Source: Clostridiaceae bacterium BRH_c20a (GTDB taxonomy: Bacteria > Bacillota > Peptococcia > Peptococcales > BICA1-8). From it: a stretch of 62,548 bases of DNA. Position 1 is the stretch's first letter. Each line of letters begins with the position of its first letter. Below the pieces are notes generated by a model. The model made no database searches, was not told the DNA's origin, and worked only from the letters and a program-made list of their open reading frames with translations. This document shows, one piece after another, positions 35,958-39,853 of this stretch. The position numbers and the translations under genes are program-made. The stretch is taken from assembly GCA_000961765.1 (NCBI GenBank), contig LADT01000004.1, positions 1 through 62,548 on the forward strand, read 5' to 3'.

Positions 35958-36518
35958 CTATGGATACATTATACGAGCTGGATTGTAATCATGAGAAGAT
36001 ATGGATTTTCTTTGACCTACATCAATATGATAATACATTAATGAGCTAGAATGGCTACTTTCATAACAATCATCTAATGAGTACCAATGGCCAAATTCAT
36101 GTTTCGTAACCGTCAAGAAATCAAATTTATCAGATGGTGGACTACTAGTTCCATAATGCCATGAGAGTGAAGTACTGTAATAGACATCACATTCTTCAAT
36201 ATATCCTGTATTTGGATTAACCCAATAATAAGTTGCAGCTGCTACTCCATAGGGAACCATGCCTCCCGGGTCAGGTCCTAATTGGTGGAAACTGGAACTG
36301 GATTCACTAAATGTAAAACCGGGTACTTTGCTGTTCCAGTCGCTAGCTGCTTCTCTTATTCTGTTATTTGCATCAGAGCCAGCATAAACAGGCTTAAAAT
36401 ATACTCTATTACTAGACCATTTATCGTTTGTATCAATATGTGCAGAGACGGTAGAGACCAATGCAAATTGTAGAATAAGTATTATGCAAATAGCTGTAAA
36501 TATTTTTTTTGTTTTCAT
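35958..36518 (-). CDS. Secreted matrixin/snapalysin-like zinc metalloprotease
   Basis: A 186-residue protein with a clear signal peptide (cleavage after VSA near residue 26) and a metzincin site: HEFGHWYSLDD, two His and Glu, with Asp as probable third zinc ligand as in snapalysins; SSLMYYH supplies the Met-turn. The glycine usual after the second His is Ser here. The ATG at 36518 has GGAGG seven bases upstream. It is divergent from the agr operon across 386 bases that hold the phased repeats at 36679-36731. Confidence 0.8.
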   Translation of the reverse strand: MKTKKIFTAICIILILQFALVSTVSAHIDTNDKWSSNRVYFKPVYAGSDANNRIREAASDWNSKVPGFTFSESSSSFHQLGPDPGGMVPYGVAAATYYWVNPNTGYIEECDVYYSTSLSWHYGTSSPPSDKFDFLTVTKHEFGHWYSLDDCYESSHSSSLMYYHIDVGQRKSISSHDYNPARIMYP

Positions 36519-36571
36519 TGGTTTTCCTCCTAACATTTTTTTAATAAACTTTTGAAAAATTATTTTATGCT

Positions 36572-36678: not shown

Positions 36679-36731
36679 CCTATTTAGCCTATATTCGTAT
36701 CTATTTAAGCCAAAAACAAGCCTATTTAACC
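36679..36731 (+). promoter_or_regulatory. Three direct repeats with 21-bp phasing, likely AgrA/LytTR site
   Basis: CTATTTAGCC (from 36680), CTATTTAAGCC (from 36701) and CTATTTAACC (from 36722) start exactly 21 bp apart, two helical turns. LytTR regulators such as AgrA bind pairs of 9-bp repeats with 12-13 bp spacers, which gives the same phasing. The site lies between the divergent protease and agr operons and could control both. Confidence 0.7.
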
Positions 36732-36904: not shown

Positions 36905-37384
36905 ATGGTACATTCTATCCCCTGGTATATTGTCCTAACGGTTAGTATACCTGAAACTTTTTTGTGTTTGTCTCTTGGGTTTAGCCTTTTTAATGTACCC
37001 GTTAACAACAAAGATAAATTAATCTTATCTATTTTAGCCGGAATATCATCTTATATTATTAGGAAGATTCCCCTTCTATTTGGTGTTCACACATTTATAT
37101 TCCTAATATTTTTAGTCATATTAACCAGATTACTTTGCAAAATCGGCCTCATCCAATCTGTTATTTGCATTTTAGCAGGAATGATGATTGTAGGAATATT
37201 ACAAAGTATTACTTCGCCTTTGATTATTGATTTGTCCGGAATAAATGTAAATGAAGTTAGCGATAAGCCCTGGATAAACCTTATATTATTTCTACCTTCC
37301 GGGCTTATTATGACACTGCTTTACTATCTAATCAAAAAGTTTAATTTGATATTATACGATTTAAAAATTTACTATGAAGGTTGA
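36905..37384 (+). CDS. Membrane protein at the head of the agr operon
   Basis: A 159-residue protein with about five membrane helices and short loops. ACAGGAGG lies four bases before the ATG. Its stop overlaps the region where the next gene starts, so it is coupled to the sensor kinase, which itself has only two membrane helices. AgrC receptors normally have six or seven helices fused to the kinase; this protein may provide the missing sensor helices as a separate chain. No family name is known to me. Confidence 0.8.
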   Translation: MVHSIPWYIVLTVSIPETFLCLSLGFSLFNVPVNNKDKLILSILAGISSYIIRKIPLLFGVHTFIFLIFLVILTRLLCKIGLIQSVICILAGMMIVGILQSITSPLIIDLSGINVNEVSDKPWINLILFLPSGLIMTLLYYLIKKFNLILYDLKIYYEG

Positions 37385-37392
37385 TAAGTTTA

Positions 37393-38226
37393 ATGGAAAA
37401 TATATCCATCGTTTTAACAGTTTTAATGCAAACTTTTCTTATTATTGTTGTAAACCACTACATTTATATCCTTAATAATCCAGATACCTTAAAAATCTTA
37501 CTTCCTTTTATTAACCTATTGATGTTTTTGTTGGTAAGCTTTTTATTAATTTCAATTAAAAAACTAGAAATTAATGCAAGAAGAAAAGTAGAAATCAATT
37601 TATTACGGGACCATCTTAAACAGATTGAAAACCTACTCTCGTCAATGCAAACTCAAAAACATGATCACACCAAACATATCCAAACTTTACAGGCTATGGT
37701 CCATTTGGGGGAAATTGAAGCGGCAAAAAAATATATTGATGGTATTGCTGAAAATTACTGGTACATGCAGGATATCATTAATGTAGGTCATCCTGCTTTG
37801 ACAGCTTTATTAAACAGTAAGAGAAAAGTTGCGGAAATTAAAAAAATTGAATTTGATTTTAGCGTAAAATGTGATATTAGCATAATTCATATAACTTCCT
37901 GGGATTTATGCAGTATTATCGGCAACCTATTGGATAATGCGATTGAAGCAGTTACCAGCAATAATGGTCATAAACGGGTTGGTATGGAACTCAAATTGGA
38001 AGACAATAAGTATATGATTTATGTTTACAACAATGGTCCCACGTTAACTTCAGAAGAAAAAAGGAAAATATTTGAGCCGGGTTACACCACAAAAGATTCC
38101 ATCGGTAGGGGTTATGGCCTTTACCTGATACAAAAGCTAGTTGAAAATTATCAGGGGAACATCCAAATTATTTCAGAGGATAAGACTACTTTTATTGTTT
38201 CAATTCCCCAAAAGGAGAAATGGTGA
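37393..38226 (+). CDS. AgrC-like sensor kinase with GHKL ATPase domain
   Basis: A 277-residue kinase: two membrane helices (about 5-27 and 33-54), a Spo0B/AgrC-type dimerisation region with the phosphoacceptor His in QKHDHTKHIQTL, and a GHKL ATPase domain with N box NLLDNAIEA and glycine motifs near GRGYGLYLIQKLV. It would phosphorylate the LytTR regulator at 39128. ATG 37393 is preferred; a TTG at 37381 overlaps the previous stop. The short sensor part is unusual for AgrC. Confidence 0.88.
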   Translation: MENISIVLTVLMQTFLIIVVNHYIYILNNPDTLKILLPFINLLMFLLVSFLLISIKKLEINARRKVEINLLRDHLKQIENLLSSMQTQKHDHTKHIQTLQAMVHLGEIEAAKKYIDGIAENYWYMQDIINVGHPALTALLNSKRKVAEIKKIEFDFSVKCDISIIHITSWDLCSIIGNLLDNAIEAVTSNNGHKRVGMELKLEDNKYMIYVYNNGPTLTSEEKRKIFEPGYTTKDSIGRGYGLYLIQKLVENYQGNIQIISEDKTTFIVSIPQKEKW

Positions 38227-38861
38227 TGATTAAAGGTATTTCTAAAAATCTGGCCAAATGGATGGGAAATCAGTTGGCCTCTAGGGAAGATGAGTTAGAA
38301 GTATATGCTTATGGACTGGAAATTATTCTGGGTGGGATCTTTAAAATAGGGTTACTATTATTGATTGCTTCTCAGCTGAATATCTTATCGACCACTGTAC
38401 TTTGTACACTCGGATTTGTGGGAATCAGGTTTTTCGGCGGAGGAGTGCATTTATGTACTTACCCCAGATGTTTAGCAGGTAGTTTAACAATCCTATTAAT
38501 ATTAGGAAAAATTGCTGCTTTTAATTTAAGCGTGGATTTCCTTTTTATATTTATTTTTGCAACTCTCTGTTTAGGAGTTTATTCAATTATCAAACTAGTA
38601 CCTGCCGGCACCCATAAGAAGACAGTTACCGATAAAAAGCTAAGAACCAAGCAAAAAATTAAAACCTCTATAATATTCATTATCTATCTAGTTATAATAT
38701 TAATTTTTATGCGGTATCAACTAGTTTCTTGGGCTTTTTCAGTAGTTTTTGGGGTTCTAGCTAGCTTTTTCTTGATTACTCCTTTAGGTTATTTCTTTTT
38801 GCAAAGTATAGATAATCTTTTGGATTTATTACGTCAGAAACAAGGTACCCGGTTTGGCTAA
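38226..38861 (+). CDS. agrB: AgrB-like peptide-processing membrane protease
   Basis: A 211-residue integral membrane cysteine protease that in agr systems cuts the propeptide and forms its lactone ring. The catalytic pair is visible in RFFGGGVHLCTYPRC, with His and Cys seven residues apart, as in Staphylococcus AgrB. About five hydrophobic segments follow. The ATG at 38226 has GGAG eight bases upstream and overlaps the kinase stop. The propeptide gene follows at 38984. Confidence 0.92.
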   Translation: MIKGISKNLAKWMGNQLASREDELEVYAYGLEIILGGIFKIGLLLLIASQLNILSTTVLCTLGFVGIRFFGGGVHLCTYPRCLAGSLTILLILGKIAAFNLSVDFLFIFIFATLCLGVYSIIKLVPAGTHKKTVTDKKLRTKQKIKTSIIFIIYLVIILIFMRYQLVSWAFSVVFGVLASFFLITPLGYFFLQSIDNLLDLLRQKQGTRFG

Positions 38862-38983
38862 AAAGACTCTATTTTGTACGAAATGGACACGAATATGGGC
38901 TAAATAGACAAAACAGGGGGAAATTTAACTGAAATATCGAATTGTTTTATTGTAATTAAAATTAAAATAGGAAAGGAGGACGT

Positions 38984-39121
38984 ATGATGAAATATTTAAC
39001 AAAATTTGCTTTTGTTTTAGCCAGTTTAGCGGTATTGGTAGCCGGTATAGGAATTAGTCCCAATAGCATGTGGTTTTGTCACGAACCGGATATACCCCCA
39101 AGTTTAAGAAATAAGGATTGA
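38984..39121 (+). CDS. agrD: AgrD-like autoinducer propeptide, probable serine-ring type
   Basis: A 45-residue propeptide missed by length cut-offs. It has an amphipathic leader (MMKYLTKFAFVLASLAVLVA), a pheromone core NSMWFC, and the acidic, proline-containing tail HEPDIPPSLRNKD that AgrB needs. Aligned on that tail, the core SMWFC takes the place of CLWFT in the clostridial AgrD I remember, so Ser28 replaces the ring Cys and Cys32 becomes the C-terminal residue. AGGAGG lies upstream; the regulator gene starts seven bases after the stop. Confidence 0.88.
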   Translation: MMKYLTKFAFVLASLAVLVAGIGISPNSMWFCHEPDIPPSLRNKD

Positions 39122-39127
39122 GGAACT

Positions 39128-39853
39128 GTGGTCAATATTTTGCTTTTAGAAGATGAAGCTTATACAAGAAAGTTTTTTAAACAGCTTTTAATAAATAATC
39201 CTTTAACAACAAATATTTATGATACATCAAATTGTAAAGAAGCTATTAAATTGGCGAAAGAGCATAAACCAGAAATTGCTATGTTAGATATTGAACTTGG
39301 GTCAACAGAGGCTATGAACGGATTAGATGCAGCGAAAATTATCTCTAACCTTTTACCAGACACAATTTTTGTTTTTGTTACAGGTTATACCAAATACGCA
39401 GTTGATTCCTTTGCCGTGCATCCTTTTGATTATATTATAAAGCCAGTAAATAAGGATCGTATTACTGAGGTTATCGCTAAAATTGTTAGCCGCTTGAATA
39501 ATTCTGCTATTTCCAGAAAAGATAACAAGCTAACTTTTAAAAATAAGGATGAGACGTATTTTATTCATCCCAGGGATATTATCTTTATTGAAAGACAATC
39601 TAGAGATACCCTGGTCCATACTAAATATGGCGTTTATCCAGTCAATGACAATCTAACTAATTTCGAAGAAATGCTTGGTAATAACTTTTTACGGGTGCAT
39701 CAGTCCTTTTTAATCAATCTGAGCAAAGTCAAAATGATCAAAAATCTTGCTAACAGGTCTTTTGATATTGAGTTTTTGGGATATAATAAAAAAGCTTCTA
39801 TGAGTAGATATAAATTTGAAGAGTTCAAAGAAAAATTCGCCCCGTTACTTTAA
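39128..39853 (+). CDS. AgrA-like response regulator with LytTR domain
   Basis: A 241-residue regulator. Residues 1-120 form a receiver with the acidic pair in LLEDEA, the phosphorylation Asp in AMLDIELGS, and Lys in IIKPVNKD. Residues 140-240 are a LytTR DNA-binding domain (ETYFIHPRDIIFIERQ, FLRVHQSFLINLSKVK). The start is a GTG with GAGGA three bases upstream. It is the output of the agr cassette and the presumed reader of the repeats at 36679-36731. Confidence 0.93.
   Translation: MVNILLLEDEAYTRKFFKQLLINNPLTTNIYDTSNCKEAIKLAKEHKPEIAMLDIELGSTEAMNGLDAAKIISNLLPDTIFVFVTGYTKYAVDSFAVHPFDYIIKPVNKDRITEVIAKIVSRLNNSAISRKDNKLTFKNKDETYFIHPRDIIFIERQSRDTLVHTKYGVYPVNDNLTNFEEMLGNNFLRVHQSFLINLSKVKMIKNLANRSFDIEFLGYNKKASMSRYKFEEFKEKFAPLL

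Follow-up and report, generated by a model that had tools for sequence, protein, structure and literature searches.

The agr locus of Clostridiaceae bacterium BRH_c20a raises the question of how its signalling peptide is closed, as the AgrD propeptide has a serine at the position where a ring-forming cysteine is usual and a cysteine at the end of its core. The window that we analysed is a whole contig (LADT01000004.1, 62,548 bp) of a 4.5-Mb genome, and agrD lies at 38984..39121 on the forward strand, flanked by agrB and a LytTR response regulator gene. Its 45-residue translation is MMKYLTKFAFVLASLAVLVAGIGISPNSMWFCHEPDIPPSLRNKD, in agreement with the core NSMWFC, the tail HEPDIPPSL and the Ser28 and Cys32 numbering given in a first-pass annotation of this DNA. 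The propeptide matches the NCBIfam model TIGR04223 with 33.3 bits (E 3.7e-08), above the curated cut-off of 19, and its assignment agrees with an alignment of 159 AgrDs and with the orthologous operons described below. A strong ribosome-binding site, AAAGGAGG (38972..38979, forward strand), lies 4 nt before the first ATG and 7 nt before a second at 38987, and because of this spacing translation may start at Met2 instead, giving a 44-residue product. The agrD at 38984–39121 is a real gene within a complete agr operon.

The operon encodes, in order, a membrane sensor, a GHKL kinase, AgrB, AgrD and a LytTR regulator, all transcribed rightwards. The regulator (39128..39853, forward strand) is AgrA-like, has a GTG start, and matches Response_reg (9.8e-14) and LytTR (1.4e-20). 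The kinase (37393..38226, forward strand, with a TTG at 37381 as a possible alternative start) has matches to HATPase_c, GHKL and SPOB_a, but covers only positions 140–396 of the 414-position AgrC profile; the part that is absent corresponds in size to the 159-aa membrane protein encoded immediately upstream (36905..37384, forward strand). In another genome (locus L217) sensor and kinase are fused into a 460-aa AgrC that aligns to profile positions 44–396, and the 159-aa protein matches the N-terminal part of this fusion (E 6e-20). Because the kinase lacks the N-terminal part of the profile and L217 fuses both, the receptor is probably an AgrC split into a 159-aa AIP-sensing half and a separate kinase half. 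The window copy of the sensor matches no Pfam or NCBIfam family, and a solved structure for it was not found. A literature search found no split AgrC receptors, which is weak evidence as subscription papers were mostly outside its reach. If confirmed, a split receptor would make it possible to study AIP binding separately from the kinase. The sensor-like membrane protein is conserved beside agrB across relatives (L002, L017, L018, L019 and L208–L212), and at some relatives' loci there is no kinase beside it, the next gene being GGDEF-like or another.

The register of the ring was examined with AgrDs collected from 46 genomes of the window's class and from an even sample of 398 genomes of the phylum, which gave 159 distinct profile-aligned sequences; the matches listed were the best-scoring ones, so this sample favours AgrDs that match the model strongly. 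Four further residues separate the ring residue from the cleavage site, without insertion or deletion, in 159/159 of the AgrDs among the matches listed, a constancy that is partly what a profile seeded with tail-aligned sequences can detect. Of these 159 listed sequences, 116 have Cys, 41 (26%) Ser and two Thr as the ring residue, the first tail residue after cleavage is Tyr in 140 and His in 19, and tail position +3 is Pro in every one. The window AgrD fits the same pattern, in which the fifth residue before the cleavage site is Cys or Ser and the tail reads [HY]-[QED]-P-x-x-P-x-x-L. From this spacing, the residue counts and the tail, position 28 is therefore taken as the ring position and Cys32 as the last core residue, as the first-pass annotation had proposed. 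A Ser28–Cys32 lactone with a free terminal thiol is thus the best reading of the propeptide. The AgrD of Clostridium perfringens, in which CLWFT precedes HQPEEPKSL, has the same register and likewise His after the cleavage site, but its ring is closed by Cys where the window has Ser, and its last core residue is Thr where the window has Cys. Residue 28 is also the ring Cys of Staphylococcus aureus AgrD, in whose processing E34 and L41 are important (PMC10482373); the window AgrD agrees with this numbering.

Cys is the usual nucleophile and Cys32 is the sole Cys of this AgrD, which could point to a ring closed elsewhere, by Cys32 in a shifted register or by Ser25 in a larger ring like the nine-residue ring of GBAP. 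However, Cys32 is immediately followed by the conserved [HY]-[QED]-P tail and shares its column with the last core residue in every relative, and a shifted ring occurs in 0/159 of the AgrDs among the matches listed, so that closure through another residue is very improbable. Attack of the Cys32 thiol on its own carbonyl is also unlikely, since it would require a four-membered ring.

The Ser28–Cys32 register is borne out by the operons most closely related to that in the window. The five nearest AgrBs (L174, L170, L203, L159 and L188) form a six-member clade with the window's (SH-aLRT 99), and the order sensor-kinase-agrB-agrD-regulator is common to all five. Their AgrD cores are PN-CWFII, PN-SVFAL, TQ-SWWSL, LN-CWFIT and PL-CWLVW, as compared with PN-SMWFC in the window. 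The position equivalent to Ser28 is Cys in three and Ser in two (3:3 when the window is included), the position equivalent to Cys32 is I, L, L, T and W, and the homologue alignment thus offers no case of a ring residue elsewhere, such as at Cys32. The tree of 119 AgrBs requires a minimum of 15 changes of the ring residue, compared with about 29 when the labels are shuffled; Cys and Ser therefore switch repeatedly, yet are more clustered than expected by chance. The agr ring nucleophile has thus switched between Cys and Ser many times, whereas the reviews consulted treat Ser as an exception. A contig search with AgrB as the query found no relative.

The earlier statement that serine rings are known in only a few systems stands for characterised systems, but rarity does not follow, given the 41 Ser-type sequences among the 159 AgrDs listed and two further paralogues in this same genome. 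These clear Ser-ring paralogues have TSLGLW before HQPRVPRKL (contig C44) and ASFFTF before YQPKTPKAL (C42); a third, with CSASLF before YQPRVPEKL (C60), has an ambiguous ring residue. Serine rings are thus common, and an ordinary feature, in this bacterial group, and thiolactone trapping by native chemical ligation should miss about one quarter of the peptides in this sample of the phylum. The genome contains eight AgrB matches (on contigs C22, C42, C44, C60, C19, C4, C75 and C83, some of them truncated or at contig ends) and several further AgrDs. Copies of an agrD with the core CLGYF are near-identical on C19 and C83, with two on C83, which suggests recent duplication.

The AIP of Staphylococcus intermedius/pseudintermedius has Ser in place of the ring Cys, as in the window, but its last residue is not Cys and its AgrC is a one-piece protein, unlike the apparently split AgrC here. 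It is a lactone of nine residues with an N-terminal tail (Ji 2005; PMC3673130), and the S. intermedius group, Enterococcus faecalis GBAP (PMC3673130) and Clostridium thermocellum (PMC5322536) provide the characterised Ser rings. The E. faecalis Fsr system likewise makes a lactone and not a thiolactone, although its ring is four residues larger and fsrD lies within the fsrB sequence (PMC3673130). The C. thermocellum AgrD Clo1313_2818 resembles the window propeptide in having a five-residue Ser-hydroxyl lactone just before the tail residue and a proline tail, but this tail begins with Y and not with His, the last residue of the peptide is Phe, and the gene lies outside any agr operon (PMC5322536). 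Its Ser-lactone pentapeptide was confirmed by LC-MS/MS in culture fluid (PMC5322536).

The gene upstream of agrD encodes the AgrB membrane endopeptidase/cyclase (38220..38861, forward strand; PF04647, E 6e-32), with a catalytic dyad H...C in RFFGGGVHLCTYPRC. Both the catalytic His and Cys are present (GGGVHLCTYPRC), and these columns are near invariant in 119 AgrBs. In the 38484–38486 region, the residue three after the catalytic His is Thr (HLCT); of the AgrBs with a Ser-type AgrD partner, 15 of 32 have Ala, Gly or Cys there, compared with 0 of 86 of those with a Cys-type partner, an association that is underpowered and not significant after correction for relatedness. In the established agr scheme the ring residue attacks a thioester that AgrB has formed with the last residue of the core (PMC10482373). 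S. aureus AgrB1 and AgrB2 are unable to process a Ser-containing AgrD (PMC10482373), and the use of Ser therefore depends on the partner AgrB. The window AgrB would sever the Cys32–His33 bond of AgrD, with its catalytic Cys forming the thioester, and the Ser28 hydroxyl would then attack this thioester, closing SMWFC into a lactone of five residues and leaving the thiol of the last one free. Once the leader upstream of Ser28 is removed, the signal would be secreted either as the bare ring or with a short tail, for instance ISPN-, still attached.

Whether such a tail remains bears on the fate of the ring. The residues before Ser28 (ISPN) contain no A-x-A signal-peptidase motif and resemble SINP-, which is among the staphylococcal AIP tails (PMC10482373), and an N-terminal tail such as ISPN- on the five-residue ring is therefore plausible. 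Exotail-free thiolactones rearrange spontaneously, and for an exotail-free lactone analogue of a Listeria peptide 22 h at pH 7 and 37 C led to 48% rearrangement and 36% hydrolysis (PMC11297923); an O-to-N acyl shift would therefore be expected here if no tail remains, converting the lactone to a lasting head-to-tail cyclo(SMWFC) with the Ser hydroxyl and Cys thiol both free. Such a rearrangement would be a later fate of the Ser28–Cys32 lactone, so that both can be true, but a tail would block the route, and we consider a cyclo(SMWFC) end product possible but doubtful.

The terminal Cys, which the first-pass annotation had called unusual, is indeed so, being present in 1/159 of the AgrDs among the matches listed. 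The last core position is highly variable, with 17 different residues in the 159 listed sequences. A looser DNA pattern, S/C/T-xxx-C-[HY]-[EQ]-P..P..L, gave 31 matches in the 398 phylum genomes, of which only one besides the window (L095) is AgrD-like, the rest being judged chance matches although not every one was translated. A tighter pattern run on 84,980 species gave four matches, all due to chance by translation, and no AgrD relative with S-[hydrophobic]-W-[hydrophobic]-C. In these sets the terminal Cys was found in no other intact relative. The L095 sequence (G343:C73) has LSPCPVFC before HQPKLPDSLRE; it is a decayed, leaderless Cys-ring relic with the core CPVFC and adjoins a transposase. 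The core nearest to that in the window is NSMWFL, from a decayed agr locus of another family (L116/L213). At L213 (G129:C17) this agrD is accompanied by a truncated regulator, and there is no agrB nearby.

We weighed three accounts of Cys32. It is most likely a tolerated variation at a highly variable site, and not a second ring nucleophile; because Cys32 is not conserved, its predicted thiol is most likely without a role. Nine Cys-ring AgrDs among the 159 listed have a second Cys inside the ring, and a spare thiol is therefore not in itself exceptional. The combination of a Ser ring with a terminal Cys is unique among the AgrDs listed and the predicted structure would leave a free thiol, so the signal could instead act or be stored in disulfide form, as a dimer or a mixed disulfide, in a redox-dependent manner; but Cys32 is conserved in no orthologue and the nine Cys-ring sequences argue that spare thiols are tolerated, which makes this account improbable. 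Were it true, a serine lactone whose C-terminal thiol is put to use, either by disulfide dimerisation or by gating receptor binding according to redox state, would be an AIP chemistry that we have not found described. The third account, that agrD is decaying or that the assembly has its Cys codon wrong and the real peptide is SMWFF or similar, draws on the restriction of the Cys end to a single genome, on the single base by which TGT differs from TTT (Phe), and on the decayed NSMWFL locus of a related genome (L213). All five operon genes, the tail and the ribosome-binding site are intact, however, and the assembly is rated 100% complete, and we regard this account as decidedly improbable, though the unconserved terminal Cys could have arisen within the strain or through a fault in the assembly.

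Signal read by the proposed split AgrC would lead to phosphorylation of the LytTR regulator, and probable sites for this regulator are present both upstream of the operon and within it. Three direct repeats (CTATTTAGC, CTATTTAAG and CTATTTAAC) with a 21-bp period lie upstream of the operon (36680..36730, forward strand) and are probable LytTR regulator sites. A probable second site in the agrB–agrD gap (38856..38909, reverse strand) has three copies in inverted orientation, again with a 21-bp period, one of them overlapping the last agrB codons. The repeats have the consensus CTATTTA[GA][CG]. In the window, the pair CYATTT-N15-CYATTT is present at three places, all of them within these two intergenic regions, an outcome reached in 0/100 shuffles. 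Near-identical 9-mers spaced at exactly 21 bp are present upstream of 8/10 related agr operons, with no more than three for any other period tried. The AgrA site consists of a 9-bp repeat with 12-bp spacing. AgrA recognises a pair of direct repeats that lie upstream of the promoters it controls (PMC4227749), and this, together with the repeat arrays in the operon gaps and the 21-bp period in the relatives, makes a direct autoinduction loop likely, in which the regulator would bind both upstream of the operon and in the agrB–agrD gap. Searching the genome for further targets of the regulator gave two weak matches only, the same number as in a reversed control.

Genes, register and repeats together point to an agr operon in which a Ser28–Cys32 lactone would be sensed by a split AgrC and would drive its own synthesis through the LytTR regulator, a reading to which we assign a probability of about 0.8. 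Divergent from the operon is a gene for a secreted matrixin-like metalloprotease (35958–36536, reverse strand; PF00413, 24.6 bits with a cut-off of 24). The upstream repeat array lies between this gene and the operon, and the metalloprotease may be an output of the system, like gelatinase in Fsr.
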